From assembly GCF_003574395.1 (NCBI RefSeq), contig NZ_QMJY01000071.1, forward strand, positions 1 to 34,546: 34,546 nucleotides of DNA. The letters are read 5' to 3'. Below, piece by piece: positions 7,325-24,228 of this stretch. The notes under the pieces are model-generated. The model saw only the letters and a list, made by a program, of their open reading frames with translations, made no database searches and had not been told where the DNA came from. Every line of letters starts with the position of its first letter. Position 1 is the first letter of the stretch. The position numbers and the translations under genes are program-made. The stretch comes from Tabrizicola thermarum (GTDB taxonomy: Bacteria; Pseudomonadota; Alphaproteobacteria; Rhodobacterales; Rhodobacteraceae).

Positions 7325-7792
7325 GTGGAGCAGTATCTGACCTGGAACTCCGAGCAGGCGCTGGGTCATCTGGTCGCGCTGGCTGTGGCATATCTGCTGG
7401 CCCTGCCAATCGGCTGGAATCGCGAACGAGAAGAGCGCAGCGCCGGTGTGCGGACCTTTCCCCTGGTGGCGATGGCGGCTTGCGGCTTCGTGATGATCGC
7501 CATCGGGGTATTAGGGGCGGGTTCCGAGCAGCACTCGCGGATCATCGAGGGGCTGATGACCGGGATCGGTTTCATTGGTGGCGGCGCAATCCTGAAGCAG
7601 GGAGACCGGGCCAAGGGAACGGCAACGGCGGCTAGTCTTTGGGCCACCGGAGCGATCGGCGCGGCGGTGGGCTATGGGCAACTGGACATCGCGGTGATCC
7701 TGAGCCTGGTCACCGTGCTGACGCTGGTCGTCATGGCCCCCTTGCGCAAAGTGGTGCAGGAGAGGGCTCCGCTGGACCGCGAAGAGGTTTAG
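7325..7792 (+). CDS. MgtC/SapB-family membrane protein
   Basis: This 155-residue inner-membrane protein has the MgtC/SapB N-terminal domain: hydrophobic helices near 17-33, 47-66, 82-95 and 112-136, with the family motifs ALPIGWNREREERSAGVRTFPLV and MTGIGFIGGGAILKQG (near 79-94) and ATAASLWATGAIGAAVG. It has only the membrane domain, without the soluble C-terminal ACT-like domain of Salmonella MgtC. It starts with GTG at 7325; AGGAG (7314-7318) overlaps the stop of the peptidase gene, implying co-transcription. Its stop overlaps the stop of the convergent regulator by four bases. Family roles include adaptation to low magnesium and membrane ATPase control; here the role is unknown. Confidence 0.88.
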   Translation: MEQYLTWNSEQALGHLVALAVAYLLALPIGWNREREERSAGVRTFPLVAMAACGFVMIAIGVLGAGSEQHSRIIEGLMTGIGFIGGGAILKQGDRAKGTATAASLWATGAIGAAVGYGQLDIAVILSLVTVLTLVVMAPLRKVVQERAPLDREEV

Positions 7793-8745
7793 CGCCGCAA
7801 GCTTCCGGGCGGCTGGCCGAAGCGGGCGCGGAAGGCCCGGGACAGGGTCGAGGGGCTGGAAAAGCCGGTGCGGAGGGCGACCTCGGCGATGGGGTGACGG
7901 GTGTCGGTCAGCATCCGGCGCGCGGCCTGGAGGCGCAGGTCGAGCGCGTGGGCGGCGGGGGTGGTGTTCAGCGCCTGGCGGAAGAGCGACTCCAGGCGGC
8001 GGGGGGAGAGGCCGACGGCCCTTGCGGTGGCGGCGGCGGGTTCGGGGGCGTCGATCCGCGCCTCCATCCTTGACAGGGCTGCGGCCACGCGGGGGTCGAG
8101 GGCGGGGTCCTGCGGGGCGATCTGGGGCTCGTGACCCGGGCGGTGGGTGGCCAGGAAGCTGGCGGCGACCTGGCGGGCCAGCGCGGCGCCGTGGCGGCTG
8201 CGGATCAGGTGCAGCATGAAGTCCTGCGCGGGGGCGGCGCCCGAGATCGTCACGCGGTTGCGGTCGATCACGAAGCGGTCGGGGACCACGTCGATATGGG
8301 GGTGCGCGGCGGCGAGGTCCTCCAGGTCCTCCCAATGCACGGTGGCGCGGTGGCCGTCGAGGAGGCCCGCACGGGCAAGGACCCAGGGGGCGGCGTCGAT
8401 GCCTCCGACAAGCTGAAAGCGCGGGGCGATGCGGCGGAGGTCGCGGATCAGCGGGCGGGTCGCGACCTCGGCCAGGCGGTAGCCTGCGATGACGATGAGG
8501 GCGTCGGCGCCGCTGGCGTGGGCGAGGGGGCCGGAGGACGGAAGCTCGATGCCGCAGGTGAGGGGGACGGGGGCGCCGTCGGGGGAGACGACGCGCCAGC
8601 GGTAGGCCTCTGACCCAAGCTGGCGGTTGGCGTTGCGCAGGGGGTCGAGGGCGGAGGCGACCTCGAGGATCGAGGCCTGCGGCAGGACGAGGAGCGCGAT
8701 GGTCAGCGGGTCGTCAGAGGGGTGGAAGATGGCACTTTCCGTCAT
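7789..8745 (-). CDS. GlxA-family AraC-type regulator, probable carnitine regulator (CdhR-like)
   Basis: The 318-residue protein has a DJ-1/PfpI-like sensor domain (about 15-190) and a C-terminal AraC double helix-turn-helix (about 215-312, with GLSPRRLESLFRQAL and IAEVALRTGFSSPSTLSRAFRARFG regions). In the elbow where DJ-1 proteins carry a reactive Cys this protein reads VGGIDAAPWVLA, so the sensor is not a peptidase or glyoxalase. GbdR and CdhR, activators of glycine betaine and carnitine catabolism, have the same architecture. It is transcribed divergently from the carnitine genes across a 74-base gap, which supports a role as their regulator. No ribosome binding site is visible at 8745, so translation may be leaderless or start downstream. 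Confidence 0.85.
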   Translation of the reverse strand: MTESAIFHPSDDPLTIALLVLPQASILEVASALDPLRNANRQLGSEAYRWRVVSPDGAPVPLTCGIELPSSGPLAHASGADALIVIAGYRLAEVATRPLIRDLRRIAPRFQLVGGIDAAPWVLARAGLLDGHRATVHWEDLEDLAAAHPHIDVVPDRFVIDRNRVTISGAAPAQDFMLHLIRSRHGAALARQVAASFLATHRPGHEPQIAPQDPALDPRVAAALSRMEARIDAPEPAAATARAVGLSPRRLESLFRQALNTTPAAHALDLRLQAARRMLTDTRHPIAEVALRTGFSSPSTLSRAFRARFGQPPGSLRR

Positions 8746-8819
8746 CGGAATTTCGTAATGTGCAAAGCTCGGGCTGGCAAGCCGGCTATTGTGACGATCA
8801 AAGTCCGGGGAGGTCTGCG
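8746..8819. promoter_or_regulatory. Divergent control region of the carnitine operon
   Basis: These 74 bases separate the regulator start from the first catabolic gene and must carry both promoters. A short dyad, GGCT-GGCA-AGCC, sits near the middle (about 8788-8799). GGGGAGG (8807-8813) is the ribosome binding site of the plus-strand gene. The operator is not defined by sequence alone. Confidence 0.4.
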
Positions 8820-9734
8820 ATGCCGCTGAACATGAACAAGGAAGTCTTCATCACCTGCGCCGTGACGGGGGCGGGGGGAACGCAGGACCGCAGCCCGCAT
8901 GTGCCGCGGTCCCCCAAGCAGATCGCCGACAGCGCGATTGCGGCGGCGAAGGCAGGGGCGGCGGTGGTGCATTGCCATGTGCGCGACCCCGAGACGGGCA
9001 AGCCCAGCCGCAAGCTGGAGTATTACCGCGAGGTGACGGAGCGCATCCGCGACAGCGATACTGATGTGGTGCTGAACCTGACCGCCGGCATGGGCGGCGA
9101 CATGTATTTCGACGGCACCGAGAAGATGACCGAGATGGCCGCGATTTCCGATATGTGCGGGGCCGAGGAGCGGGTGGCGCATATCGTCGAATGCCGCCCG
9201 GAGATCTGCACGCTGGACTGCGGCACGATGAATTTTGCCGAGGCCGATTATGTGATGGTGAACACTCCGGGGATGCTGCGCGACATGGCGCGGCGGATGA
9301 CGGCGGCAGGGGTGCGGATCGAGATCGAGGCCTTCGACACGGGGCATCTGTGGCTGGCCAAGCAGCTGGTGTCCGAGGGCGTGATCCCCGAGCCGGTGCT
9401 GGTGCAGCTGTGCATGGGGGTGCCCTGGGGCGCGCCGGATGACCTGAACACCTTCATGGCGATGGTGAACAACGTGCCGCAGGGCTGGCATTTCAGCGCC
9501 TTCGGGCTGGGCCGCAACGAGATGGCCTATGTCGCGGCGGCGACACTTGCGGGCGGCAATGTCCGGGTCGGGCTGGAGGACAACCTCTGGCTGGAGAAGG
9601 GGGTGCTGGCGACCAACGCGCAACTGGTGGAGCGCGCGGCGACCATTGTCGAGAACCTGGGCGCGCGGGTGATTACCCCGGCCGAAGTGCGGGCGCGGCT
9701 GAAGCTGGAGAAGCGGGCTCCGGTGGCGAAGTAG
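8820..9734 (+). CDS. BKACE-family enzyme, probable dehydrocarnitine cleavage enzyme
   Basis: This 304-residue enzyme belongs to the beta-keto acid cleavage family (DUF849, formerly 3-keto-5-aminohexanoate cleavage), which condenses a beta-keto acid with acetyl-CoA to give acetoacetate and a new acyl-CoA. The zinc site is visible: His51 and His53 in VVHCHVRDP and Glu253 in GLEDNLW. Because the next enzyme is a carnitine dehydrogenase, the expected substrate is 3-dehydrocarnitine and the product betainyl-CoA, as for CdhC. The start at 8820 follows GGGGAGG at six bases; an earlier frame start at 8760 is rejected. It is the first gene of an operon running to about 15775. Confidence 0.88.
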   Translation: MPLNMNKEVFITCAVTGAGGTQDRSPHVPRSPKQIADSAIAAAKAGAAVVHCHVRDPETGKPSRKLEYYREVTERIRDSDTDVVLNLTAGMGGDMYFDGTEKMTEMAAISDMCGAEERVAHIVECRPEICTLDCGTMNFAEADYVMVNTPGMLRDMARRMTAAGVRIEIEAFDTGHLWLAKQLVSEGVIPEPVLVQLCMGVPWGAPDDLNTFMAMVNNVPQGWHFSAFGLGRNEMAYVAAATLAGGNVRVGLEDNLWLEKGVLATNAQLVERAATIVENLGARVITPAEVRARLKLEKRAPVAK

Positions 9735-9738
9735 GCCG

Positions 9739-10089
9739 ATGCGGCGGCTTGGCGCGGCGGCGCGGCCCATCTTGGCGGGGACCTGCCTTCTGCTTTTCGT
9801 GGCCTGCGTCGCGGATGGGCAATGGTACACGCCGGCGGGTGTGCCGCTGGGCGAGGTCGATTGCACCAGTCCGGCCCCGCTGGAAGGACCGGCGGGGCGG
9901 GAGATCTGCCTCGCGCGGGTGATCGACGAAAGTCCCCAGGCAGTTGCGCGCTGTCGCAGGGACGGCGGTCGGACGGGGCCGGTCTCGATCGTCGACCGGC
10001 GCTTTGCCTGCAACTACCGCAAGCGGGACGATGGGTCCGTCAGCGGGTCGGATGACGGAAAGAAACAGGGAACGGGGGCGCGGCCATGA
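9739..10089 (+). CDS. Small Cys-rich secreted or lipoprotein of unknown function
   Basis: The protein has 116 residues. The N-terminus (RRLGAAARPILAGTCLLLFVAC) is a signal sequence: two early arginines, a hydrophobic core and a possible lipobox FVAC ending near residue 23. The mature part is short and polar with four further cysteines (VDCTS, EICLA, ARCRR, FACNY), possibly two disulfides, and an Arg/Asp/Lys-rich tail. I do not recognise a family. It begins four bases after the cleavage enzyme's stop, and its own stop overlaps the ATG of the carnitine dehydrogenase (ATGA), so it is part of the operon and translationally coupled. An envelope role in carnitine capture is only a guess. Confidence 0.6.
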   Translation: MRRLGAAARPILAGTCLLLFVACVADGQWYTPAGVPLGEVDCTSPAPLEGPAGREICLARVIDESPQAVARCRRDGGRTGPVSIVDRRFACNYRKRDDGSVSGSDDGKKQGTGARP

Positions 10090-11564
10090 ACCGGAAGGCG
10101 GCAATCATCGGGGGCGGAGTGATCGGCGGCGGCTGGGCGGCGCGGTTCCTGCTGAACGGCTGGGATGTGGGGGTGTTTGACCCCGACCCGGAGGCGGAGC
10201 GGAAGATTGCGGCGGTGCTGGCGAATGCCAGGGCAGCACTTCCGGCGCTGTCCGACGTGCCGATGCCTGCGGAGGGGAAGCTGATCTTTCACGGCACCAT
10301 CGGCGAGGCGGTGGAGGGCGCGGACTATGTGCAGGAAAGCGTTTCGGAGCGGATCGAGCTGAAGCACAAGGTCTATGCCCAGTTGCAACAATCGAACCCC
10401 GGAGTGCTGATCGGGTCGTCCACAAGCGGGTTCAAGGCCAGTGATTTGCAGAAATCTGCGGTTGCGCCGGAGAACATCATCGTCGCGCATCCGTTCAACC
10501 CGGTCTATCTGCTGCCCCTGTCCGAGATCAGCGGCAGCCCGGCCAACCCGCCTGCGGTGGTGGAAAGGACCGTGCAGATCATGAAGGACATCGGGATGTT
10601 TCCGCTGGTGATCCGGCACGAGATCGACGCCTTCATCGGCAACCGGTTCCTGGAGGCGGTCTGGCGCGAGGCCTTGTGGATGCTGAAGGACGGCATCGCC
10701 ACGACCGAGGAGATAGACGAGGCGATCCGCATGGGATTTGGCCTGCGCTGGGGGCAGATGGGGCTGTTCGAGACCTACCGCATTGCGGGCGGCGAGGCCG
10801 GGATGCGGCATTTCATGGCGCAGTTCGGCCCGGCGCTGAAATGGCCCTGGACCAGGCTGATGGACGTGCCCGAGTTCAACGACGAGCTGGTGGACCTGGT
10901 CGCCAGCCAGTCCGACGCGCAGTCGGGGATGTATGGCATCCGTGAACTTGAGCGGATCCGCGACCGCAACCTCGTGGGCTTCCTGCGGGCCTTGAAGGAA
11001 CGCAACTGGGGCGCGGGGAAGGTGCTGCGCGAGCACGACGAACGCCGCGCGGCGGCCTTCCATGCCGAGATGGCGAAGGGGCTGGACACAGGGGCGAAGG
11101 CGGCCCCTCTTGTCATGTGGCAGGGGCAGGTCCTGCCGGGCTGGATCGACTACAACGGCCACATGACGGAAAGCCGCTATTACTTCTGCAACTCGGAGAC
11201 GGTGGACAACTTCCTGCGGATGATCGGCGCGGGGATGGATTATGTGGCGGCGGGGCATTCGTACTACTCGGCCGAGACGCATATCCGCCACCTGGGCGAG
11301 GCGAAGCTGGGGGATCAGTTGCGCGGCGAGTTGCAGATCATCAACGCGGACGAGAAGCGGTTCCGGTCTTTCGTGCGGATCCTGAAGGGCGAGGCCTGCG
11401 TGGCGACGGTGGAGCAGTTGTGCCTGCATGTGGACATGAAGGCGGGCAAGACGGTGCCGGCCGCGCCCGAGGTCTGGGCGAAGCTGAAGGCTATCGCCGA
11501 CGCCCATGCCGGGCTGCCGATGCCGGAGGGCGCGGGCCGGGCGGTCGGCCAGAAGAAGGAGTAG
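10086..11564 (+). CDS. lcdH: L-carnitine dehydrogenase fused to a betainyl-CoA thioesterase
   Basis: This 492-residue protein has two domains. Residues 1 to about 315 form an NAD-dependent 3-hydroxyacyl-CoA dehydrogenase-like unit (GGGVIGGG at 9-16; catalytic-type His135 in AHPFNP). Residues about 340-475 form a hotdog thioesterase with the 4HBT motif WIDYNGHM (Asp355, Asn357, His359). Such fusions are described in Sinorhizobium and relatives: the first domain oxidises L-carnitine to 3-dehydrocarnitine, and the second hydrolyses betainyl-CoA made by the BKACE enzyme, giving glycine betaine. Both activities therefore bracket the product of the gene at 8820. The ATG overlaps the preceding stop. 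The next gene's AAGGAG overlaps this stop. Confidence 0.92.
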   Translation: MNRKAAIIGGGVIGGGWAARFLLNGWDVGVFDPDPEAERKIAAVLANARAALPALSDVPMPAEGKLIFHGTIGEAVEGADYVQESVSERIELKHKVYAQLQQSNPGVLIGSSTSGFKASDLQKSAVAPENIIVAHPFNPVYLLPLSEISGSPANPPAVVERTVQIMKDIGMFPLVIRHEIDAFIGNRFLEAVWREALWMLKDGIATTEEIDEAIRMGFGLRWGQMGLFETYRIAGGEAGMRHFMAQFGPALKWPWTRLMDVPEFNDELVDLVASQSDAQSGMYGIRELERIRDRNLVGFLRALKERNWGAGKVLREHDERRAAAFHAEMAKGLDTGAKAAPLVMWQGQVLPGWIDYNGHMTESRYYFCNSETVDNFLRMIGAGMDYVAAGHSYYSAETHIRHLGEAKLGDQLRGELQIINADEKRFRSFVRILKGEACVATVEQLCLHVDMKAGKTVPAAPEVWAKLKAIADAHAGLPMPEGAGRAVGQKKE

Positions 11565-11568
11565 GGCG

Positions 11569-12732
11569 ATGGATTTCGGGCTGACCGAAGAACAGCGGAT
11601 GATCGTCGAGACGACGCGGGCCTTCGTCGAGGCGGAGCTTTACCCGCATGAGCAACAGGTGGAGCGGACCGGGGTCCTGCCGCTGGAGCTGATCCGCGAG
11701 ATCCAGGCAAAGGCCATCGCGGCGGGGCTTTACGCGGCCAACATGCCGGTAGAGGTCGGGGGAGCGGGGCTGGATACCCTGTCCTGGCTGCTTTACGAGA
11801 AAGAGTTGGGCCGGGCGAATTATGCGCTGCACTGGACCTGCGTGGCGCGGCCGTCGAACATCCTTCTGGCGGGGAATGCCGACCAGCGCGAACGCTATCT
11901 GATGCCCTGCATCCGCGGCGAGACCTGGGATTGCCTGGCGATGACCGAACCCGGCGCGGGGTCGGACTTGCGGGGGATGAAGGCCAGCGCGCGACAGGAT
12001 GGCGGCGACTGGGTGCTGAACGGGACCAAGCATTTCATCAGCCACGCCGACCTTGCGGGCTTTGCCATCGTCTTCATGGCGACGGGAGAGGAAGAGACTC
12101 CACGCGGCCCGAAGAAGCTGATCACGGCGTTTTTCGTGGACAAGGGCACCCCGGGGTTCACGGTGCGTGAGGGATACCGGAACGTGAGCCACCGGGGCTA
12201 TACGAATTCGGTGCTGGAGTTCGACGACTGCCGGGTGCCCGCCGCCAACGTGCTGGGCGAAGTGCACAGGGGGTTCGAGGTGGCGAATTCCTGGCTGGGG
12301 GCGACGCGGTTGCAGGTGGCCTCGACCTGTCTGGGGCGGGCCGAGCGGGCGCTGGCGCTTGCCGTGGCCTATGCGGCGGAACGCAGGCAGTTCGGGCAGA
12401 AGATCGGCAAGTTCCAGGGGGTGTCCTTCAAGCTGGCCGACATGGCGATGGAGTTGAAGGCGGCGGAACTGCTGACGCGCGAGGCGGCCTGGAAATACGA
12501 CCAGGGCACGGTGACGGACGGCGACATGGCGATGGCCAAGCTGAAGGCGACCGAGGTGCTGGCGATGGTCGCGGACGAAGCGATCCAGATCCATGGCGGG
12601 ATGGGGCTGATGGACGAATTGCCGCTGGAGCGGATCTGGCGCGATGCCCGCGTGGAGCGGATCTGGGAGGGCACGTCCGAGATCCAGCGGCACATCATCA
12701 GCCGCGAATTGCTGAGGGCGGTCGGGGGGTGA
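11569..12732 (+). CDS. Acyl-CoA dehydrogenase, probably for gamma-butyrobetainyl-CoA
   Basis: The 387-residue protein is a full-length FAD-dependent acyl-CoA dehydrogenase. Landmarks are the start MDFGLTEEQRMI, the FAD/substrate segment CLAMTEPGAGSDL, the central beta domain, AVAYAAERRQFGQKIGKFQ, QIHGGMGLMDELPLERIWRD and the catalytic base Glu367 in RIWEGTSEIQRHI. The context (carnitine enzymes, a CoA ligase and a CaiD-like hydratase) suggests it introduces the double bond in gamma-butyrobetainyl-CoA to give crotonobetainyl-CoA. It is not a close CaiA homologue: CaiA-type enzymes read GGSDEMQ where this one has EGTSEIQ. The start at 11569 has AAGGAG seven bases upstream; an earlier in-frame start at 11506 is rejected. 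A hairpin repeat follows the stop. Confidence 0.88.
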   Translation: MDFGLTEEQRMIVETTRAFVEAELYPHEQQVERTGVLPLELIREIQAKAIAAGLYAANMPVEVGGAGLDTLSWLLYEKELGRANYALHWTCVARPSNILLAGNADQRERYLMPCIRGETWDCLAMTEPGAGSDLRGMKASARQDGGDWVLNGTKHFISHADLAGFAIVFMATGEEETPRGPKKLITAFFVDKGTPGFTVREGYRNVSHRGYTNSVLEFDDCRVPAANVLGEVHRGFEVANSWLGATRLQVASTCLGRAERALALAVAYAAERRQFGQKIGKFQGVSFKLADMAMELKAAELLTREAAWKYDQGTVTDGDMAMAKLKATEVLAMVADEAIQIHGGMGLMDELPLERIWRDARVERIWEGTSEIQRHIISRELLRAVGG

Positions 12733-12743
12733 GATGTCGGACC

Positions 12744-12794
12744 GGGGGCGCTTCGCCCCCCGGACCCCCCGAGGATATTTGTGGACAGATGAAA
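12744..12794 (+). repeat. Dispersed intergenic hairpin repeat, copy 3 (CTT loop)
   Basis: GGGGGCG and CGCCCCC pair around CTT (12744-12760), followed by a C run, GAGGATATTTG and a tail ending ACAGATGAAAG. It begins 11 bases past the acyl-CoA dehydrogenase stop. An inverted partner lies at 12909-12958. Confidence 0.65.
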
Positions 12795-12908
12795 GGGTTT
12801 GTTAACCTTGGCCTGCAAGAGTGATCGGGCGGTACAGGCGGGGACGCCGATGACCGCGACAGGTGAAACCCTGCCTCGGTTCGCCGGGGCAGGGCGCCTT
12901 TCTTCCAA

Positions 12909-12958
12909 TTTCATCTGTCTGCAAATATCCCGGGGGTCCGGGGGCAGCGCCCCCGGGG
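12909..12958 (-). repeat. Dispersed intergenic hairpin repeat, copy 4 (inverted)
   Basis: CCGGGGGC (12938-12945) pairs with GCCCCCGG (12949-12956) around a 3-base loop. Read on the minus strand it continues with ACCCCCGGGATATTTG and a tail ending ACAGATGAAA, the same tail subtype as copy 3. Confidence 0.65.
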
Positions 12959-12983
12959 CTTGTGCCGCAGAGCGGGGCCGCGC

Positions 12984-14972
12984 ATGAGCCGTCTCGACCG
13001 CCTTCTCCGCCCGCGCCACATTGCCGTCCTGGGGGCCGGCTGGGCGCTGAACGTGATCGAGCAGTGCCGCAAGATGGGCTTCAAGGGCCCGGTCTGGCCG
13101 GTGCATCCGACCAAGGCCGAGATCGGGGGGCTGAAGGCTTATCCAAGCCTCGCCGATCTGCCCGTGGCGCCGGATGCGACCTTCATCGGCGTGAACCGCT
13201 TTGCCACCGTCGAGGTCGTGGCCGAGCTTGCGGCGATGGGCGCGGGCGGGGCGATCTGCTTTGCCTCCGGCTGGACCGAGGCGGGCGAGCCGGGGTTGCA
13301 GGACAGGCTGGTCGCGGCGGCGGGGGAGATGCCGATTCTGGGGCCGAACTGCTATGGCATCATCAACTACCTGGACGGCGCTCTTCTGTGGCCGGACCAG
13401 CACGGTGGGGTTCCGGTGCAGACCGGCGTGGCGCTGGTCAGCCAGTCGTCGAACATCGTCATCAATCTGGGGATGCAGCAGCGGGGGCTGCCGGTGGCCT
13501 ATGTCGCCTGTCTGGGCAATGCCGCCGTCGTCGGGCTGGCCGAACTGACCGGGGCGCTGCTGGATGACCCTCGCGTGACGGCGGTGGGCCTGTACATCGA
13601 GGGGATCGACGATGCCCCGGCCTTTGCTGCGCTGGCGGAGAAGGCGCGGGCGATGGGCAAGGGGGTGGTGGCGATCAAGTCGGGCAAGACCGAAGCCTCG
13701 CGCACGGCGGCGGCCTCGCATACTGCCTCGCTGGCGGGTGGGGGGGCGGCGTCTTCGGCCTTCCTGCGCCAGATCGGGGTGGCGGAGGTCAACACGCCCA
13801 GCGAGCTGATCGAGACGCTGAAGATCTTCCACGTCCACGGGCCGCAGATCGGGACGCGGCTGTGCAGCCTGTCCTGTTCGGGGGGCGAGGCGGGGCTGGT
13901 GGCGGATCTGGCGGCGCCCCATGGGCTGGAGTTCCCTCCGGTGCCTGCCGCCACGCACGACCGGCTGTTCGCGGTGCTGGGCGAGATCCCCACGATCTCC
14001 AACCCCTTGGATTACCACACCTTCATCTGGGGCGACGGGCCGAAGACGACCGAGGTGTTCAGCGCGATGCTGGAGGCCTATGACGCGGGGCTCTACATCA
14101 TCGACACGCCCCGGGCCGACCGCTGCGATCCGTCCAGCTATCAGCCCGCGCTGGAGGCGATCGTGGAGGCGCAAAGGGCGACGGGCAAGCCCGCCTTTCC
14201 CGTCGCCTCGATGGCCGAGAACTTCGGCGAGGGCCGGGTGCGGGACATGATGGAACAGGGTGTGTGTGCTCTGCTTGGGCTGGAAACCGCACTGGCGGCG
14301 ATCCGGGCGGCTCAGACCCCCGCCGGAGTGCCGGGCTGGCGGCCCGTCGTGGCGCTGCCCGCGCGCGAGACGGTGATGCTGAGCGAGGCCGAGGGGAAGG
14401 CGCTGCTGGCCGGGGCCGGGGTGCCGGTGCCGGGGGCGGTGACAGGGGCGACGATTGCCGAGGTGGCGGGGAAGGTGCGCTTTGGCGGGCCTTACGTCCT
14501 GAAGGGTCTGGGCTTTGCCCACAAGACCGAGGCGGGGGCGGTGCGGCTGGGGCTGACCTCGCTGGAGGATCAGGCCGAGATGCCGGGGGCGACCGGCTAT
14601 CTGGTCGAGGAGATGGTGACGGGCGCGGTGGCCGAGGTGCTCCTGGGTCTGCGCCGCGATCCGGTCTATGGGGTGACGCTGACACTGGGCATGGGCGGGG
14701 TGACGGCGGAGGTGCTGGCCGATACGGTGACGCTGGTGCTGCCGGTGACGGAAGCGCAGGTGCTGGCGGCGGCGCGGGGCCTGCGGCTCTGGCCCCTGCT
14801 GGACGGCTATCGCGGGCGGCCGAAGGCGGACATGGGCGCCGTGGCGGCGATGGCGGTGCGGCTGGGGGCGCTGATGCTGGCCGACGACAGCCTTGAGGAA
14901 ATCGAGATCAATCCGGTCATGGTGCGCGAGACGGGCGCCGTGGCGGTGGATGCACTGGTCAGGAGGGTATGA
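12984..14972 (+). CDS. NDP-forming acyl-CoA synthetase, fused alpha-beta (acetate-CoA ligase family)
   Basis: This 662-residue protein is a single-chain acyl-CoA synthetase of the succinyl-CoA synthetase/ADP-forming acetate-CoA ligase superfamily. An N-terminal CoA-binding Rossmann domain (about 5-130) is followed by two succinyl-CoA-ligase-like domains (about 145-430) and a C-terminal ATP-grasp domain (about 445-660, including GPYVLKGLGFAHKTEAGAVRL). His246 in ASHTASLAGG aligns with the phosphohistidine motif of succinyl-CoA synthetase. In this operon it probably activates gamma-butyrobetaine, crotonobetaine or carnitine to the CoA ester, a role filled in E. coli by CaiC (AMP-forming) or CaiB (CoA transferase). 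The start at 12984 has no strong ribosome binding site. The stop overlaps the next start. Confidence 0.85.
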   Translation: MSRLDRLLRPRHIAVLGAGWALNVIEQCRKMGFKGPVWPVHPTKAEIGGLKAYPSLADLPVAPDATFIGVNRFATVEVVAELAAMGAGGAICFASGWTEAGEPGLQDRLVAAAGEMPILGPNCYGIINYLDGALLWPDQHGGVPVQTGVALVSQSSNIVINLGMQQRGLPVAYVACLGNAAVVGLAELTGALLDDPRVTAVGLYIEGIDDAPAFAALAEKARAMGKGVVAIKSGKTEASRTAAASHTASLAGGGAASSAFLRQIGVAEVNTPSELIETLKIFHVHGPQIGTRLCSLSCSGGEAGLVADLAAPHGLEFPPVPAATHDRLFAVLGEIPTISNPLDYHTFIWGDGPKTTEVFSAMLEAYDAGLYIIDTPRADRCDPSSYQPALEAIVEAQRATGKPAFPVASMAENFGEGRVRDMMEQGVCALLGLETALAAIRAAQTPAGVPGWRPVVALPARETVMLSEAEGKALLAGAGVPVPGAVTGATIAEVAGKVRFGGPYVLKGLGFAHKTEAGAVRLGLTSLEDQAEMPGATGYLVEEMVTGAVAEVLLGLRRDPVYGVTLTLGMGGVTAEVLADTVTLVLPVTEAQVLAAARGLRLWPLLDGYRGRPKADMGAVAAMAVRLGALMLADDSLEEIEINPVMVRETGAVAVDALVRRV

Positions 14973-15775
14973 TGCCAGAGATGCAGATGCGAACCGAGGG
15001 TCCGATCCTGACCCGGCGCGAGGGGGCGATCCTGGAGGTCACGCTCGACCGGCCCAAGGCCAATGCGATCGACCTTAAGACCAGCCGGATCATGGGGCTG
15101 GTGTTCCGCGACTTCCGCGACGACGACTCGCTTCGCGTCTGCATCCTGCGGGCGGCGGGGGAGAAGTTCTTCTGCCCCGGCTGGGACCTGAAGGCGGCGG
15201 CCGAGGGCGATGCGGTGGACGGGGATTACGGGGTGGGCGGCTTCGGGGGATTGCAGGAACTGCCGAACCTCAACAAGCCGGTCATCGCGGCGGTGCAGGG
15301 CATCTGCTGCGGCGGAGGGCTGGAACTGGCCTTGAGTGCCGACCTGATCCTGTGTTCCAGCAATGCGACCTTCGCCCTGCCGGAAATCCGGTCGGGCACG
15401 GTAGCCGATGCCGCCAGCATCAAGCTGCCGAAGCGCATTCCCTGGCATGTGGCGATGGACCTCTTGCTGACCGGGCGCTGGTTCGATGCCGAAGAGGCGT
15501 TCCGCTGGGGCCTCATCAAGGAAATCTGCGCGCCGGAGGAGTTGCTGGGGAAGGCCTGGGATCTGGCGCGTCTGCTGGAAAGCGGCCCGCCGCTGGTCTA
15601 TGCCGCGATCAAGGAGATCGTGCGCGAGGCGGAGAACATGCGCTTTCAGGACGCGCTGAACCGGATCACCAAGCGGCAGTTGCCGACGGTGGACCGGCTG
15701 TATTCCAGCGAGGACCAGCTGGAAGGCGCGCGGGCCTTTGCCGAAAAGCGCGATCCGGTCTGGAAGGGGCGGTAG
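14972..15775 (+). CDS. caiD: Crotonobetainyl-CoA hydratase (carnitinyl-CoA dehydratase)
   Basis: The 267-residue enzyme belongs to the crotonase superfamily and resembles E. coli CaiD along its whole length: LDRPKANAID near 28, GEKFFCPGWDLKAAAEGDA near 66-84, KPVIAAVQG, the oxyanion-hole region GGGLELALSADL, ALPEIRSGTV with a catalytic-type Glu, and the identical C-terminal AFAEKRDPVWKGR. It hydrates crotonobetainyl-CoA to L-carnitinyl-CoA, linking gamma-butyrobetaine oxidation to the carnitine dehydrogenase. The ATG at 14972 sits four bases after AGGAGGG; an ATG three bases earlier overlaps the ligase stop and is too close to the Shine-Dalgarno sequence. A hairpin lies just beyond the stop. 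Confidence 0.9.
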   Translation: MPEMQMRTEGPILTRREGAILEVTLDRPKANAIDLKTSRIMGLVFRDFRDDDSLRVCILRAAGEKFFCPGWDLKAAAEGDAVDGDYGVGGFGGLQELPNLNKPVIAAVQGICCGGGLELALSADLILCSSNATFALPEIRSGTVADAASIKLPKRIPWHVAMDLLLTGRWFDAEEAFRWGLIKEICAPEELLGKAWDLARLLESGPPLVYAAIKEIVREAENMRFQDALNRITKRQLPTVDRLYSSEDQLEGARAFAEKRDPVWKGR

Positions 15776-15806: not shown

Positions 15807-15843
15807 TGTCGCGCGTCCTGCGAAAGCTGTCAGCGAGGTTCTC

Positions 15844-16314
15844 ATGCCCACCCACGACTACACCACCCGCATTCTCTGGACCGGCAACCGGGGCGAGGGG
15901 ACGGCGCATTACAAGGCCTATGACCGGACCTGGGATATCGCCGTGCCGGGAAAGGCCGTGGTGCACTGTTCGAACGATCCGCTTCTGGGCGGGGACCCCG
16001 CGAAGATGAACCCCGAGGACCTTTTGCTGTCGGCGCTCTCGGCCTGCCACATGCTGTGGTATCTGCACTATGCCTCGGACGCCGGGATCGTGGTCATGGG
16101 CTATTCCGATATCCCGGTCGGCGTGGGCGAGGTCGGGCGCGGCGGGGCGGGGCGGTTCGTCAAGGTGACCTTGCGGCCGCATGTCGTGGTGGCGGCGGGG
16201 ACCGATCTTGCAAGGGCCGAGGCGATCCACCACCGCATCCACGAGGTCTGTTTCATCGCCCGGTCGGTGAACTTTCCGGTGGACCATGCGCCGACCTTCG
16301 AGGTCATTGACTGA
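15844..16314 (+). CDS. OsmC-family protein
   Basis: This 156-residue protein belongs to the OsmC/Ohr superfamily of thiol-dependent peroxide-reducing proteins. It keeps both conserved cysteines: Cys68 in ALSACHMLWYLHYA and Cys136 in HEVCFIARSVNFP, and has the PEDLLLSALSACH signature. The start at 15844 has GAGG five bases upstream. The gene follows the caiD-like gene by 68 bases that include a hairpin, so it may be read through from the operon or have its own promoter. Members of this family often sit beside catabolic operons without a proven link. Detoxification of peroxides from flavin enzymes nearby (acyl-CoA dehydrogenase, GMC oxidase) is a possible reason and is inference only. Confidence 0.88.
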   Translation: MPTHDYTTRILWTGNRGEGTAHYKAYDRTWDIAVPGKAVVHCSNDPLLGGDPAKMNPEDLLLSALSACHMLWYLHYASDAGIVVMGYSDIPVGVGEVGRGGAGRFVKVTLRPHVVVAAGTDLARAEAIHHRIHEVCFIARSVNFPVDHAPTFEVID

Positions 16315-16470: not shown

Positions 16471-18084
16471 ATGGACGAGACCGATTACATCATCGTGGGC
16501 GCGGGTTCGGCGGGTTGCGTGCTGGCCGACCGGCTGACGGCTTCGGGCAGGCACCGGGTCACGGTGCTGGAGGCGGGCGGATCGGACCGGCGGTTCTATG
16601 TCCAGCTGCCCCTGGGTTATGGCAAGTTGTTCTACGATCCGGCGGTGAACTGGCTTTACCGGACCGAGCCCGACCCCGGTCTGGCAGGCGCGCGGGACCA
16701 CTGGCCGCGCGGCAAGATTCTGGGCGGGTCCTCCAGCATCAACGCGATGGTCTGGATCCGGGGGCATCGCGCGGATTACGAGGACTGGGGGCGAGAAAAC
16801 CCCGGCTGGGGCTGGGACGACTGCCTGGCGGCCTACCGGGCGCTGGAGGATACCGAGGCAGGAGCCGATGCCTGGCGCGGCAAGGGCGGGCCCCTGTTCA
16901 TTTCCGCCAACCGCTCGGGGCTGCATCCCCTGGTGCCGTCCTATATCGCGGCCTGCAGGCAGGCGGGGCTGGCAGAGACGGCGGATTTCAACGGCGCAGA
17001 GCAGGAAGGCGCCGGGGTCTACCAGATGACGATCAAGGGCGCGCGGCGGAACTCGGCCGCGCGGGCCTTCCTGCGGCCGGCGATGAAGCGGGCGAACCTG
17101 CGCGTGGTGACGCGGGCGCTGGTCACGCGAGTGCTGATCGAGGGCGGGCGGGCCGTTGGGGTGGAGTATCGCCGGGGCGGCGAGACACGGATTCTGCGCG
17201 CGCGGGCCGAGGTGATCCTCGCGGGGGGCGCGATCAACTCGCCGCAGCTGTTGCAGCTGTCGGGGATCGGGCCGGGCGGGCTGTTGCAGGGCCTGGGGAT
17301 TCCCGTTGTGCGGGACAACCCGAACGTGGGCGATCACCTCAGCGATCATCAGGGGCTCAACTACACCTGGTCGATGAAGGTGCCGACCTACAATGACGAG
17401 CTGCGCCCCTGGTGGGGCAAGCTGCGCGCGGGCTTGCAGTATTTCATCGGCGGGGGCGGGCCGCTGGCCAAGTCGATCAACCACGGGGGCGGGTTCTTCC
17501 GGACGCGACCGGACCTCGACCGGCCGAACATGCAGCTGTATTTCCAGGCGTTCTCGACCCTTATCCCGCGTGAGGGCGAGCGGCCGCTGTTGACGCCGGA
17601 TCCCTGGTCGGGGATGTCGATCGGGCTGTCGAACTGCCGACCGACCAGCCGGGGGCACATCCGGCTGCGCACGGCGCGGCCCGAGGATCATCCGGTCATC
17701 ACCGCGAATGCGTTTTCGACCGACAACGACGTCGAAGAGATGCTGGCGGCGGTGAAGTTCCTGCGCCACATCGCCGCGCAACCGGCGCTGGCCCGGCTGA
17801 TCAAGGAAGAGCTGCGTCCGGGGCCGCAGGTGGTGACGGACGATCAGCTTGTCGCCGATTTCCGCGCGCGGTCGGGGACGGTGTACCACCCGAGCTGCAC
17901 CTGCCGGATGGGCCCCGATCCCGCCTCCTCGGTGGTGGACGCGGGGCTGCGGGTGCATGGGGTGGGGGCGCTGCGGGTGATCGACGCGAGCGCTTTTCCC
18001 AACATCATCGCGGGAAACACCAATGCGCCTGCGATCCTGATGGGCTGGAAGGGCGCCGAGCGGGTCCTGGCCGACGCGCGGTGA
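16471..18084 (+). CDS. GMC oxidoreductase, choline dehydrogenase-like
   Basis: The 537-residue flavoprotein belongs to the GMC family, FAD-dependent alcohol dehydrogenases. The Rossmann GAGSAG is at 10-15, GGSSSINAMVWIRG and the second signature GGAINSPQLLQLSGIG follow, and the active-site pair is His473 in VYHPSCTCRMG and Asn518 in GNTNAPAILMG. The HPSCTC and NTNAP motifs match BetA-type choline dehydrogenases, and the convergent neighbour is a choline sulfatase. Conversion of choline to betaine aldehyde is therefore the leading proposal, but GMC enzymes vary widely and no betB or betI is adjacent. The start ATG at 16471 has only GGGGGGTGGC upstream. A long inverted-repeat terminator separates it from the sulfatase gene. 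Confidence 0.87.
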   Translation: MDETDYIIVGAGSAGCVLADRLTASGRHRVTVLEAGGSDRRFYVQLPLGYGKLFYDPAVNWLYRTEPDPGLAGARDHWPRGKILGGSSSINAMVWIRGHRADYEDWGRENPGWGWDDCLAAYRALEDTEAGADAWRGKGGPLFISANRSGLHPLVPSYIAACRQAGLAETADFNGAEQEGAGVYQMTIKGARRNSAARAFLRPAMKRANLRVVTRALVTRVLIEGGRAVGVEYRRGGETRILRARAEVILAGGAINSPQLLQLSGIGPGGLLQGLGIPVVRDNPNVGDHLSDHQGLNYTWSMKVPTYNDELRPWWGKLRAGLQYFIGGGGPLAKSINHGGGFFRTRPDLDRPNMQLYFQAFSTLIPREGERPLLTPDPWSGMSIGLSNCRPTSRGHIRLRTARPEDHPVITANAFSTDNDVEEMLAAVKFLRHIAAQPALARLIKEELRPGPQVVTDDQLVADFRARSGTVYHPSCTCRMGPDPASSVVDAGLRVHGVGALRVIDASAFPNIIAGNTNAPAILMGWKGAERVLADAR

Positions 18085-18268: not shown

Positions 18269-19771
18269 TCATTCCCCGCGTGGGAAGCGCTTCTGGTCTT
18301 CCAGCACGTTCAGGTCCATGTGGTTGCGCATGTAGCGTTCGCTGGCCGCGCGAAGCGGCTGGTAGTCCCAGGGGTAATAGCCGCCCTGGCGCAGCGCCTG
18401 ATAGACCACCCGGCGCCGGGCCTGGCTTTCGCGGACCTGGGCGTCATAGGCGGCGAGGTCCCAGCGGTCGTCGGCAAGCCTGCGGAAATGGGCGAGGATT
18501 TCGGCGGCACGGCGGTCCTGCGCGAGGTTCACCGTCTCGCCCGGGTCGTTGGCCACGTCGAACAGGAGTTCCGGGTCCGCCGGACAGCGGATGTATTTCC
18601 AGGCGCCTTCCCGCAGGGCGACCATGGGCGTGATGCTGCCCTCGGCGGCGTATTCCATCGCCACGGGGCCGCGCGGGGCGCCGTTTGCGACGGGGATCAG
18701 GTTCACGCCCTCGGTCCAGGGCATGACCTCGTCCATCGAGATGCCCGCCAGCGCCGCAAGCGTGGGGGCGAGGTCGATGGAGCTGACCGGTGTATCGATC
18801 CGTCCCGCGGGCATTTCCGGCGCGGCGATCATCAAGGGCACCCGCGCCGAGCCTTCGAAGAAGGTCATCTTGAACCACAGGCCCTTGTCGCCCAGCATCT
18901 CGCCGTGGTCCGACAGGAAGACGATGTGCGCCTTCTGGCGGGTGGCCTCGAGGACTGCGAGAATCTCGCCGATCTTTTCGTCGATGTAGGAAATGTTGGC
19001 GAAATAGGCGCGGCGGGCGCGGCGGATGTGGTCGGGCGTGATGGTGAAGTTGCGCCAGTCGCAGGCGTCCATCAGGCGTCGGGAATGGGGGTCCATGTCG
19101 TCGTAGGCGACGGGCTTTGGCGGTTCGCATTCGGGGGCGCGTTCGTAGAGGTCCCAGTACTTGCGGCGGGCGACGAAGGGGTCGTGCGGATGGGTGAAGC
19201 TGACGGTCAGCGCCCAGGGGCGGGGGTCGGCCCCGCGCGAGAGGTCGTAGAGTTTCTGCACCGCCTGGAAGGCCACGTCGTCGTCGTATTCGTACTGGTT
19301 GGTGATCTCGGCCACCCCGGCGCCTGTCACCGAGCCGAGGTTGTGATACCACCAGTCGATCCTCTCGCCCGGCTTGCGGTAGTCGGGCGTCCAGCCGAAA
19401 TCGGCGGGGTAGATGTCGGTTGTCAGGCGTTGTTCAAAGCCGTGCAGCTGGTCGGGGCCGACGAAGTGCATCTTGCCGCTGAGCGTGGTCTGATAGCCCG
19501 CGCGGCGCAGGTGGTGGGCGTAGGTGGGGATGTCGGACGCAAACTCGGCGGCGTTGTCGTAGACGCGGGTGCGGCTGGGCAGCTGGCCCGACATGAAGCT
19601 GGCCCGCGCCGGGGCGCAGAGGGGAGAGGCGGTGTAGCAGTTCGCGAACCGGGTGGAGCGCGCGGCGAGGCGTTTCAGGTTCGGGGTATGCAGGAAGTCG
19701 GCGGGTCCGTCGGGGAAGAGCGTGCCGTTCAGCTGATCGACCATGAAGATCAGGAGGTTGGGCTTGGTCAT
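18269..19771 (-). CDS. betC: Choline-sulfatase
   Basis: The 500-residue protein is a type I sulfatase. Cys52 in PLCAPARASFMSG is in the C-x-P-x-R signature and is the residue converted to formylglycine. Metal ligands are expected at Asp12 (FMVDQLN) and in FLSDHGEMLGDKGLW. The C-terminal extension (RRRVVYQALRQGGYYPWDYQPLR, then ERYMRNHMDLN) and the length match choline sulfatases (BetC), which release choline and sulfate from choline-O-sulfate. There is no signal peptide, as for cytoplasmic BetC. AAGGAG lies about seven bases before the start. It is in the same direction as bhcR, 89 bases downstream of it. Confidence 0.88.
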   Translation of the reverse strand: MTKPNLLIFMVDQLNGTLFPDGPADFLHTPNLKRLAARSTRFANCYTASPLCAPARASFMSGQLPSRTRVYDNAAEFASDIPTYAHHLRRAGYQTTLSGKMHFVGPDQLHGFEQRLTTDIYPADFGWTPDYRKPGERIDWWYHNLGSVTGAGVAEITNQYEYDDDVAFQAVQKLYDLSRGADPRPWALTVSFTHPHDPFVARRKYWDLYERAPECEPPKPVAYDDMDPHSRRLMDACDWRNFTITPDHIRRARRAYFANISYIDEKIGEILAVLEATRQKAHIVFLSDHGEMLGDKGLWFKMTFFEGSARVPLMIAAPEMPAGRIDTPVSSIDLAPTLAALAGISMDEVMPWTEGVNLIPVANGAPRGPVAMEYAAEGSITPMVALREGAWKYIRCPADPELLFDVANDPGETVNLAQDRRAAEILAHFRRLADDRWDLAAYDAQVRESQARRRVVYQALRQGGYYPWDYQPLRAASERYMRNHMDLNVLEDQKRFPRGE

Positions 19772-19860: not shown

Positions 19861-20673
19861 TCACGCGGGTTGGGTGCCTCCGGTGGCTTCCGTCACCTGA
19901 TCCGCCGCCGCCCGGACCAGAGCGCCGATCCGGGTTGCGTCCGACAGCCCCATGCGGAAGGCGGGGCCGGAGACGGAGAGGCCTGCCACCGGCTCGCCAT
20001 GCGCGTTGAAGATGGGCGCGGCGACGCAGCGCATCCCCTCGGCGCGTTCCTGATCGTCGATGGCAAAGCCCCGGTCGCGGGTGCGGCTGAGGTCGCGCAG
20101 AAGGGCGCTTTCGCTGGTGAGCGTCAGGGAGGTGAACTTCTCCAGCCCCTTGCGGGCGAGGATTCCGCGTGTCTTTTCCTCGGGATACCAGGCCAGAAGC
20201 GCCTTGCCGATGCCGCTGGAGTGCATGGGCGCGCGGGTGCCGGGGGGGAAGAAGGCGCGGATCGCCTCGTAGGTTTCGACCTGGGCGACGAAGAAGACCT
20301 CGTCCTTGACCTCGATCCCGAGGTTCGCAGTTTCGCCGGTTTCGCGCATGAGCTGGTCCATCGGCTGGCGCGCGCGTTCCACGACCTTGGTGCGGCGCAG
20401 GAAGGCGGAGCCGACGCGGAAGGCGCCGGGGCCGATGTGCCAGAACTGGCCGGGCTCGTCGACCTCGACCATGCCGTGGCCTTGCAGGGTGACAAGGGCG
20501 CGGAAGACGGTGGCGATGGCTTCGCCCGTCTCCTCGGCGATTTCCGAGAGTGTGCGGCCGGGGTTCTGCGCGACATGAGTCAGGATGTCGAGCCCCCGGT
20601 CGAGGGCCTGCACCGTGTTCTGGTCGGTCTTGTCGTTGAACGCCTTCGGCCGGCCGCGGGGTTTCTGGGCCAT
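19861..20673 (-). CDS. bhcR: IclR-family regulator of the beta-hydroxyaspartate cycle
   Basis: This 270-residue IclR-type regulator has a winged helix-turn-helix (about 20-85: NTVQALDRGLDILTHVAQNPGR, then TLSEIAEETGEAIATVFRALVTLQGHGMV) and an effector-binding domain (about 95-265, with SSGIGKALLAWYPEE and GFAIDDQERAEGMRCVAAPIF). It is divergent from bhcA across 149 bases, the arrangement known in Paracoccus denitrificans, where BhcR binds the bhc promoter and responds to glyoxylate. The ATG at 20673 is chosen because AGGAGG lies upstream and MAQKPRGRPKA is a normal N-terminus; an earlier in-frame ATG at 20730 lies in the control region. The choline sulfatase gene follows, so the two could share a transcript. 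Confidence 0.9.
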   Translation of the reverse strand: MAQKPRGRPKAFNDKTDQNTVQALDRGLDILTHVAQNPGRTLSEIAEETGEAIATVFRALVTLQGHGMVEVDEPGQFWHIGPGAFRVGSAFLRRTKVVERARQPMDQLMRETGETANLGIEVKDEVFFVAQVETYEAIRAFFPPGTRAPMHSSGIGKALLAWYPEEKTRGILARKGLEKFTSLTLTSESALLRDLSRTRDRGFAIDDQERAEGMRCVAAPIFNAHGEPVAGLSVSGPAFRMGLSDATRIGALVRAAADQVTEATGGTQPA

Positions 20674-20822
20674 CAGGGGCCTCCTGTTCGTGAAAAATCG
20701 CAAGGCATTGACCGGATTGAGGAATAGCATGGAACTGTGACAATGAAAAATCTTTTCGAAAAAATTGTGCGGATTGGTCGCAGGGCGTAGCCTTTGTGGG
20801 CGATCTTTCAGGGAGTTGCCCG
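20674..20822. promoter_or_regulatory. bhcR-bhcA divergent control region with candidate operator sites
   Basis: This 149-base gap is noticeably A/T-rich for the window. TGAAAAATC occurs twice in direct repeat (20691-20699 and 20744-20752). An outer dyad ACAAT...ATTGT spans 20740-20768, with the inner palindrome TTTTCGAAAA at 20753-20762. These are candidate BhcR sites. Confidence 0.45.
20765..20793 (+). promoter_or_regulatory. Candidate bhcA promoter
   Basis: TTGTGC (20765-20770) and TAGCCT (20788-20793) are 17 bases apart. A start near 20800 would give a leader of about 20 bases that includes GGGAG (20811-20815), the bhcA ribosome binding site. The candidate operator overlaps the -35 hexamer. 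Confidence 0.4.
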
Positions 20823-22013
20823 ATGTCGATGCAGAACCCGGTTTTCATTCCCGGCCCGACGAACATCCCCGATTCGGTGCGGAAGGCCTGCGACATGGCC
20901 ACTCTGGACCACCGCTCGCCCGCCTTTGCGAGGCTGTTCAAGCCTGCGGTGGAGGGGGTGCGGCGGGTTCTGCGGATGGATCGGGGCGAGGTCATCCTGA
21001 TCCCCTCGACCGGGACCGGGGGCTGGGAGGCAGCGGTGACGAACACCCTCTCGCCGGGGGATACGGTGCTGGCGGCCCGGTTCGGCATGTTCAGCCACCG
21101 CTGGATCGACCTGTGTCAGCGGCACAAGCTGGATGTCGAGATCGTCGAGGCCCCCTGGGGCGAGGGCGCGCCGCTGGCGGCGATCGAAAAGGCGCTGCGG
21201 GCCGACACGGGGCATCGCATCAAGGCGGTGCTGGCCACCCACAACGAGACGGCGACGGGCGTGAAGTCGAACATCGCGGGCATCCGGGCCGCGATGGATG
21301 CGGCGGGGCATCCGGCGATGCTGTTCGTCGATGGCGTGTCGTCGATTGCCTCGATGCCCTTCGATTTCGCGGGCTGGGGCGTGGATATCGCGGTCGCCGG
21401 GAGCCAGAAGGGCTTCATGCTGCCGGCGGGGCTGGCGATCCTGGGGGTGTCACCGAAAGCGATTGCAGCGATGGAAACAGCGCGGTTGCCGCGAACCTTC
21501 TTCGATTTCAAGGACATGCTGACCTCATACGCGCGGGGCGGCTATCCCTACACGCCGGCGGTCGGTCTGATCGCGGGTCTGGCGCATTCCATCGATTTGC
21601 TGGAGAGCGAGGGGCTGGACAATGTCCATGCCCGACACCATCGGCTGGCCGAAGGAGTGCGCCGGGCGGTCTTTGCCTGGGGGATGACGCCCTTTGCGGC
21701 CTCTCCCGACCTTTATTCCGATACGGTGACAGCGGTGAGAGTGCCGCAGGGCTGCGACGGGACGGCCTTGGTCCAATTGGCCGCGTCGAAATACGGCATG
21801 GCCTTCGGCGTGGGTCTTGGCGAGGTTGCAGGCAAGGTGTTCCGCATCGGGCATCTGGGGATGCTGACCGAGGCGATGGTGCTGTCCGGGCTGGCCGTGG
21901 CCGAGATGTGCATGGCCGATCTGGGCTGGCCGGTGACGCTGGGGTCCGGCGTGGCGGCGGCGCAGGAGTATTATCGCGGCACGGTTCCGGCCCTGGCGCT
22001 GGCGGCGGAATAA
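20823..22013 (+). CDS. bhcA: L-aspartate-glyoxylate aminotransferase of the beta-hydroxyaspartate cycle
   Basis: The 396-residue PLP enzyme belongs to the alanine/serine-glyoxylate aminotransferase family (fold type I). Signatures are NPVFIPGPTNIPDSVRKA at the N-terminus, LIPSTGTGGWEAAVTN, the FVDGVSSIASMPFDF aspartate region, and the PLP lysine Lys196 in GSQKGFMLPAGLA. In the cycle it transfers the amino group of L-aspartate to glyoxylate, giving glycine and oxaloacetate. A serine-glyoxylate aminotransferase would look alike; the assignment rests on the full bhcRABCD gene order. The start at 20823 follows GGGAG at seven bases. Two perfect palindromes separate it from bhcB. Confidence 0.92.
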   Translation: MSMQNPVFIPGPTNIPDSVRKACDMATLDHRSPAFARLFKPAVEGVRRVLRMDRGEVILIPSTGTGGWEAAVTNTLSPGDTVLAARFGMFSHRWIDLCQRHKLDVEIVEAPWGEGAPLAAIEKALRADTGHRIKAVLATHNETATGVKSNIAGIRAAMDAAGHPAMLFVDGVSSIASMPFDFAGWGVDIAVAGSQKGFMLPAGLAILGVSPKAIAAMETARLPRTFFDFKDMLTSYARGGYPYTPAVGLIAGLAHSIDLLESEGLDNVHARHHRLAEGVRRAVFAWGMTPFAASPDLYSDTVTAVRVPQGCDGTALVQLAASKYGMAFGVGLGEVAGKVFRIGHLGMLTEAMVLSGLAVAEMCMADLGWPVTLGSGVAAAQEYYRGTVPALALAAE

Positions 22014-22018
22014 GAGGC

Positions 22019-22040
22019 CAAGACTTTTCGAAAAGTCTTG
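22019..22040. terminator. Perfect 22-base palindrome in the bhcA-bhcB gap (first)
   Basis: The sequence is its own reverse complement, centred on TTCGAA, with arms CAAGACTTTTC and GAAAAGTCTTG. It starts six bases past the bhcA stop. In RNA it can form a stem of about 9 base pairs with a TTCG-type loop; as DNA it could bind a dimeric protein. Confidence 0.6.
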
Positions 22041-22062
22041 CAAAATCCTTCGAAGGATTTTG
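22041..22062. terminator. Perfect 22-base palindrome in the bhcA-bhcB gap (second)
   Basis: It abuts the first palindrome with no spacer, has the same TTCGAA centre and different arms, CAAAATCCTTC and GAAGGATTTTG. The right arm ends in TTTTG, which resembles a partial terminator. bhcB begins 24 bases later. Confidence 0.6.
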
Positions 22063-22086
22063 GTGCCAAACGGAAAGGTCAGGAAA

Positions 22087-23058: not shown

Positions 23059-23062
23059 GGCC

Positions 23063-24226: not shown

Positions 24227-24228
24227 CT

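Follow-up and report, generated by a model that had tools for sequence, protein, structure and literature searches.

Which enzyme could activate gamma-butyrobetaine in a betaine operon whose proteins include no CaiB or CaiC by their NCBIfam and Pfam matches? Such an operon lies on contig NZ_QMJY01000071.1 of Tabrizicola thermarum, in a stretch of 34,546 nucleotides (hereafter the window, meaning the whole stretch of DNA that was analysed) from a draft genome of 3.65 Mb that is 99.98% complete. Its five genes run in one direction between 8820 and 15775, all on the + strand, and their domain and NCBIfam matches bear out the place and direction given by the initial annotation. We read the locus, with a probability of roughly 0.88, as the form taken in Rhodobacterales by the Sinorhizobium-type operon for conversion of gamma-butyrobetaine to glycine betaine. 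Within it, the fourth gene is predicted from its sequence to encode a gamma-butyrobetaine:CoA ligase of the BcoAB type that forms a nucleoside diphosphate (NDP).

A five-gene betaine operon

8820..9734, + strand: beta-keto acid cleavage enzyme (BKACE; PF05853, 338.6 bits)
10086..11564, + strand: L-carnitine dehydrogenase fused to a C-terminal 4HBT_2 thioesterase (NF005716, PF02737, PF00725, PF13279)
11569..12732, + strand: acyl-CoA dehydrogenase (ACAD; PF02771/02770/00441)
12984..14972, + strand: fused alpha-beta NDP-forming CoA ligase (domain matches to CoA_binding_2, Succ_CoA_lig and ATP-grasp_5)
14969..15775, + strand: CaiD-like crotonobetainyl-CoA hydratase, a crotonase (NF002936; 53% identity to E. 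coli CaiD)

The starts given for BKACE, ACAD and ligase are the ATG codons closest to the start of the homologue alignments, the mechanical open reading frames (ORFs) beginning farther upstream; the ligase gene shares its last 4 bases with the hydratase gene. Among the listed models, a curated NCBIfam cut-off was passed by the dehydrogenase (NF005716, carnitine 3-dehydrogenase, 739 bits against 592), whose thioesterase domain (PF13279) spans residues 349-466. The ligase, ACAD, BKACE and hydratase lie above no such cut-off and were therefore named by comparison. BKACE has PDB chain 3c6c as its nearest structure (E 1.5e-79) and is 71-72% identical to Rhizobium and Sinorhizobium genes that adjoin carnitine dehydrogenase. 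The best NCBIfam model for the hydratase is NF002936, crotonobetainyl-CoA hydratase, at 310 bits (below the cut-off of 500), and its E119 and E139 align to Glu111 and Glu131 of E. coli CaiD, which we take, under that numbering, to be catalytic. The ACAD is 32% identical to E. coli CaiA, and its best NCBIfam model is acryloyl-CoA reductase, at 294 bits (below the cut-off of 640). In its WEGTSEIQ motif it has E367 where CaiA has Gly, presumably the catalytic residue expected of an oxidative dehydrogenase.

Placed in metabolic order, these proteins would form a complete route. The ligase would be phosphorylated on His246 by ATP (or GTP) and pass the phosphate to gamma-butyrobetaine, yielding gamma-butyrobetainyl-CoA, NDP and inorganic phosphate. 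The ACAD would oxidize gamma-butyrobetainyl-CoA to crotonobetainyl-CoA, with electrons going to electron-transferring flavoprotein, and the CaiD-like hydratase would convert the product to L-carnitinyl-CoA. L-Carnitine would then be freed by the thioesterase domain and oxidized to 3-dehydrocarnitine by the dehydrogenase domain, after which BKACE would turn 3-dehydrocarnitine and acetyl-CoA into betainyl-CoA and acetoacetate, and the thioesterase domain would act again to free glycine betaine. A pathway from gamma-butyrobetaine to glycine betaine and acetoacetate by way of an NDP-forming ligase had been proposed in the initial annotation; it accounts best for the locus and is consistent with the comparative data.

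The Sinorhizobium counterpart

Sinorhizobium meliloti carries the same genes in the same order (GlxA regulator, BKACE, carnitine 3-dehydrogenase, ACAD, ligase, caiD), with a ligase of the same family, so that the earlier claim of novelty for an NDP-forming ligase in such an operon does not stand. In S. meliloti Ak57 the ligase falls into two tblastn pieces, residues 4-434 and 462-659, in different frames (locus L183, 9101-11127; L and G numbers are our handles for loci and genomes) and has no gene-table entry, reflecting either a frameshift in that strain or a sequencing error; this broken copy is absent from our ligase tree. Sinorhizobium sp. M103 (L178) has an intact ligase in its operon, and both the dehydrogenase and the thioesterase halves match; identities to the window proteins are about 50% for the ligase, 72% for BKACE and 78% for the hydratase. 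ABC transporter genes directly follow the hydratase gene in S. meliloti, Rhizobium sp. Pop5 and Sinorhizobium sp. B11, whereas none is found there in the window. Bazire et al. 2019 (J Bacteriol) reportedly converted gamma-butyrobetaine to glycine betaine in vitro with five enzymes in seven steps, which we treat as a lead and not as evidence.

Excerpts of a 2021 report describe a 'gamma-bb:CoA ligase S. meliloti BcoAB', with a plasmid from A. Perret, that forms gamma-bb-CoA when given ATP, Mg and CoA (PMC8364193). Excerpts of other papers assign to the S. meliloti dehydrogenase SM2011_c01638 both carnitine oxidation and the conversion of betainyl-CoA to glycine betaine, crediting Bazire et al. 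2019 with Perret as co-author (PMC12482172), and report that strain HK4, near Rhizobium meliloti, converts gamma-butyrobetaine to carnitine in a manner that parallels fatty acid breakdown (PMC2131755). Because the S. meliloti operon matches and these reports exist, the route appears to be already known from S. meliloti and the operon in Tabrizicola mostly not new. The same excerpts contradict the initial annotation where it held that known routes activate these betaines via CaiC or CaiB, since S. meliloti BcoAB is an ATP-dependent gamma-butyrobetaine:CoA ligase and the Emergencia timonensis route uses BbuB/C (PMC8364193). Within the literature on this route as far as it was surveyed, partly as excerpts, we found no description of the nucleotide product of BcoAB or of such a ligase in Rhodobacterales.

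Family, fold and pocket of the ligase

The ligase holds CoA-binding, ligase and ATP-grasp domains within a single chain, as in the NDP-forming acyl-CoA synthetase (ACD) superfamily, and its best NCBIfam model, acetate-CoA ligase, scores 221.8 bits, far under the cut-off of 1200. DddX is its top PDB match both by sequence (E 9.7e-63) and by Foldseek, and ligase H246 (numbering from the ATG at 12984) aligns to DddX His292, the phospho-His. A histidine occupies this column in all 128 aligned sequences, window included (101 operon-type, 12 sisters and 15 outside).

According to excerpts of the DddX study, Tyr181, Trp391 and Phe435 lie near the onium substrate (PMC8163506). In our ligase alignment these residues match the columns of W136, W349 and position 386, or adjacent ones, and the window ligase has a Tyr at 386, the Phe435 position under MAFFT L-INS-i. 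Jointly, W136, the motif NP[LF]DY[HNQ]T..W (ending in W349) and an aromatic residue at 386 are present in 101/101 operon-type sequences, 1/12 sisters and 0/15 outside sequences. The column of DddX Glu432 holds Pro383 in the window ligase, and Glu in 0/101 operon-type sequences. In a quick tree, the window ligase falls in a 39-row clade with the Sinorhizobium/Rhizobium ligases L178, L150 and L151 (SH-like approximate likelihood ratio support, SH-aLRT, 96), and DddX, on a long branch, lies outside the 51-row ligase clade.

Conservation of the module

Scanning genome_contigs with the ligase, we took the best 80 of 201 loci, many of them clipped by contig ends. In 60 of the 80 the five genes keep their order and all lie on one strand, and an ACAD is present in 73. 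Where the locus was sufficiently complete (ligase start at base 7000 or later, with at least 0.9 kb beyond it), all five genes were present at 55% identity or more in 55 of 58 cases, the exceptions being L045, L078 and L080, and the grouping is therefore not due to chance.

Sampled alphaproteobacterial genomes gave a ligase match at E <=1e-60 in 63 of 289, own genome included. Outside the own genome, 26 matches reached at least 390 bits; we examined the neighbourhoods of 25 of these (the 26th, in G193, begins at a contig end with a hydratase adjoining), together with those of 15 of the more distant matches. An ACAD (at least 45% identity, within 4 kb) accompanies 19 of the 25 relatives, and in 17 an ACAD and a CaiD-like hydratase (at least 42%) both lie within that distance. 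Within 9 kb, carnitine dehydrogenase was present in 9 and BKACE in 8, and a CaiB- or CaiC-like gene of at least 28% identity in none of the 25. Around the 15 more distant NDP-forming relatives we found such an ACAD in none, a CaiD-like hydratase in one and a CaiC-like gene of 28% in one. A second sample, drawn from the phylum, yielded a ligase match at E 1e-90 in 29 of 299 genomes (own included). From it, 16 loci were inspected: 13 carry ACAD, ligase and a hydratase that is at least 72% identical, and the other three, from outside the class, have ACAD, ligase, a weaker CaiD-like gene (32-33%) and an altered motif, NPLDFTTAIW.

This module also occurs apart from carnitine breakdown. On a megaplasmid of Ruegeria pomeroyi, ACAD, ligase and hydratase come with their own GlxA regulator, and carnitine dehydrogenase and BKACE were not found in the 20 kb examined; carnitine-making and carnitine-degrading modules are separate in at least four surveyed genomes (G022, G096, G154, G252). 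Among 20 carnitine dehydrogenase loci (L154-L173), 16 have neither an ACAD nor a CaiD-like gene of at least 40% identity, and the ligase is present in none of these 16 stretches. Of the remaining four, L154 and L155 have an ACAD alone, L161 has a CaiD-like gene and a short ligase-like piece, and L173 has an NDP-forming ligase relative of 26% identity (8442-11358) between the carnitine dehydrogenase and a CaiD-like gene, possibly a second recruitment of NDP-forming ligases to carnitine. Because the ACAD-ligase-hydratase module occurs alone and the ligase is absent from those 16 dehydrogenase stretches, the ligase belongs with the steps from gamma-butyrobetaine to carnitine and not with carnitine breakdown. 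The T. thermarum genome itself contains no TauD-family (BBOX-type) gene at E 0.001, in a search whose control responded in E. coli alone of 14 known genomes, and no CaiC-like gene over 31% identity across more than 300 residues, the best reaching 28-31%; three CoA_transf_3 genes lie elsewhere in it.

Alternative readings

The ligase might instead belong to a carnitine racemase or crotonobetaine salvage system, charging D-carnitine or crotonobetaine so that the hydratase, via crotonobetainyl-CoA, supplies L-carnitinyl-CoA for degradation. Such a system would need nothing beyond a ligase and a CaiD-like hydratase, the pocket need not tell C4 betaines apart, and in a few loci (L127, where the ACAD has only 34% identity, and L173) a ligase relative is accompanied by a CaiD-like gene but by no close ACAD. 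Salvage is nevertheless improbable, as the ACAD, which would have no role in racemization, accompanies the ligase more regularly than any other gene surveyed (19/25 relatives, 73/80 loci), and S. meliloti BcoAB, in the excerpts seen, accepts gamma-butyrobetaine (PMC8364193). We regard it as very improbable that the ligase handles products of the pathway (acetate or acetoacetate from BKACE, or glycine betaine) instead of activating gamma-butyrobetaine. Public annotations, often, and the top NCBIfam model point to acetate-CoA ligase, the latter far below its cut-off; yet the ligase is missing from all 16 dehydrogenase stretches that lack ACAD and a CaiD-like gene, the ACAD-ligase-hydratase module is found without BKACE, the ligase pocket positions carry aromatics, and DddX, the closest solved relative, is described in the excerpts as inactive on acetate or propionate (PMC8163506).

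A DddX-like lyase, which would form the CoA ester of dimethylsulfoniopropionate and cleave it to dimethyl sulfide and acryloyl-CoA, with the ACAD serving as acryloyl-CoA reductase, would fit the top PDB match by sequence and by Foldseek and the top NCBIfam model of the ACAD, itself below cut-off (294 of 640 bits). We find this reading scarcely credible: Glu432, essential in DddX, is kept in 0/101 operon-type sequences, DddX branches outside the 51-row clade (in a quick tree, on a long branch), and the ligase gene sits among carnitine genes and beside a CaiD-like hydratase gene.

Several points weigh against our preferred reading, a gamma-butyrobetaine-to-glycine betaine operon with its own CoA ligase. 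The reactions of all operon proteins in T. thermarum are predictions from sequence, and the ligase substrate is deduced from the gene's surroundings, from residues of the pocket and from an orthologue; the enzyme may act additionally, or instead, on crotonobetaine or on D- or L-carnitine. That orthologue, BcoAB, is equated with the ligase of the S. meliloti operon from its name, species and originating laboratory and from the reported content of Bazire et al. 2019. The pocket motif was picked from the same alignment that it splits, and its clean separation therefore partly reflects shared descent. The pairing of W349 with DddX Trp391 depends on the program, phmmer pairing the W of HTFIW and MAFFT L-INS-i pairing H345, with W349 four residues later. 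Neighbourhoods are also less uniform than the counts suggest: six of the 25 ligase relatives have no ACAD nearby (L112, L116-L118, L120, L121), and the L120 stretch contains two weak AMP-ligase matches, 23-26% identical to CaiC. Other CaiC-like matches blur the picture, in L129 (28%), L149 (28%, annotated as malonyl-CoA synthase) and L158 (34%, short and at the stretch end), as does a CaiB-like match in L170 (27%). Finally, some of the 16 ligase-free dehydrogenase loci are clipped by contig ends, and some of their genomes have a ligase elsewhere.

Release of free carnitine

As thioesterase and dehydrogenase share one polypeptide, the reverse ligation proposed in the initial annotation is unneeded for carnitine release in the window operon, where the fused thioesterase is the simpler route. 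On the ligase-adjacent dehydrogenases of L114, L119, L125, L196 and L206, tblastn detected no thioesterase domain; in thioesterase-less operons, a remote thioesterase or a reversed ligase must act. In the genome of L114 (G105) every 4HBT/4HBT_2 match lies on contigs other than that of the operon, and in the genome of L119 (G163) such matches are either on different contigs or at a distance of over 100 kb. L125 is an ambiguous case, because a second operon on the same contig of G079 (L115) has a fused thioesterase. Scanning two sets of 10 gap ORFs from related operons revealed one 4HBT_2 thioesterase, in L127, next to a distant ligase accompanied by a CaiD-like gene, the remainder having DJ-1/PfpI, short-chain dehydrogenase (SDR), lipocalin, HD, OTCase, amidohydrolase, beta-lactamase-like, alpha/beta hydrolase or thiamine pyrophosphate-enzyme matches, or none.

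A bolder proposal, which we consider doubtful, is that one reversible NDP-forming ligase charges gamma-butyrobetaine with ATP and discharges carnitinyl-CoA to ATP, replacing CaiC and CaiB. It would be obligatory in the five loci just named, and the ligases with W136, NPLDYHTxxW and the 386 aromatic would form an onium-betaine branch beside DddX. If this were true, carnitine would be made at no net ATP cost.

Related operons also hold additional genes. An HD-domain protein lies between BKACE and the thioesterase-less dehydrogenase in two genomes of one genus (L196 5652-6281, with weak MIOX similarity; L206 ~12491-13477). A short-chain dehydrogenase, which could be a D-carnitine or other quaternary-amine dehydrogenase, occurs within the carnitine operon in L115 (6866-7639), L154 (7423-8205) and L197 (6027-6791), and in three relatives, L197 (5500-6576), L201 (5899-6438) and L203 (11838-12365), a gene located between those for BKACE and carnitine dehydrogenase encodes a lipocalin-like protein. 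Between ligase and hydratase, L106 (8205-8816) and L149 (11017-11622, R. pomeroyi) have a stand-alone DJ-1/PfpI protein.

Genomic context

7789..8745, - strand: GlxA/GbdR-like AraC-family regulator (DJ-1/PfpI + HTH_18), divergent from the operon
15832..16314, + strand: OsmC-like protein after the operon, start codon undefined (PF02566)
16471..18084, + strand: GMC-family, choline-dehydrogenase-like oxidoreductase (NF002550, 545 bits, below the cut-off of 605)
18269-19771: choline sulfatase (TIGR03417, above cut-off)
19861-25266: IclR regulator, then pyridoxal phosphate and amino-acid enzymes (Aminotran_5, PALP, D-Ser dehydratase-like, OCD/mu-crystallin)

The surroundings of the operon are rich in betaine and amino-acid catabolism genes. 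The GlxA-type regulator likely responds to carnitine or gamma-butyrobetaine in the manner of CdhR, and a homologue of at least 55% identity is found in 59 of the 80 genome_contigs loci, compared with 23 for the OsmC-like gene and 46 for the GMC oxidoreductase. A promoter scan of the window returned 0 sites, and its 3 terminator-like sites show no excess over chance (3.0 expected in shuffles); at this chance level overall, the 250 bases that separate ACAD from ligase include, at 12869-12894, an 11-pair hairpin with a T-rich tail after it. By its ligase, the closest named relative is Rhodobacter calidifons (95% identity), in a comparison that may leave out entries from the genome to which the window belongs.

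Implications and comparison with known systems

Our analysis provides a checkable function for many proteobacterial genes whose current annotation is often 'acetate--CoA ligase family protein', together with a sequence signature that marks operon-type ligases, and it indicates that use of gamma-butyrobetaine by the CoA route is a common trait among Rhodobacterales and Rhizobiales.

Beyond Sinorhizobium, the operon shares with E. coli caiTABCDE an ACAD and a CaiD-like hydratase, 53% identical and with both aligned Glu residues, but it is without CaiC and CaiB, its ACAD has Glu where CaiA has Gly, and it would run in the aerobic, oxidative direction. With DddX (PDB 7cm9; excerpts of PMC8163506) the ligase shares a colinear full-length sequence and fold, the phospho-His and aromatic pocket residues, whereas the Glu432 base is not present in the window ligase and DddX falls outside the ligase clade. 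The bbu cluster of Emergencia timonensis, as described in excerpts (PMC8364193), has the same first intermediate, gamma-butyrobetainyl-CoA, but activates by the class III CoA transferases BbuB/C and eliminates trimethylamine with a flavoenzyme. A SAR11 island, again from excerpts (PMC12421898), shares carnitine dehydrogenase and BKACE with the window operon and has, in place of the CoA route, an annotated gamma-butyrobetaine dioxygenase for direct hydroxylation.

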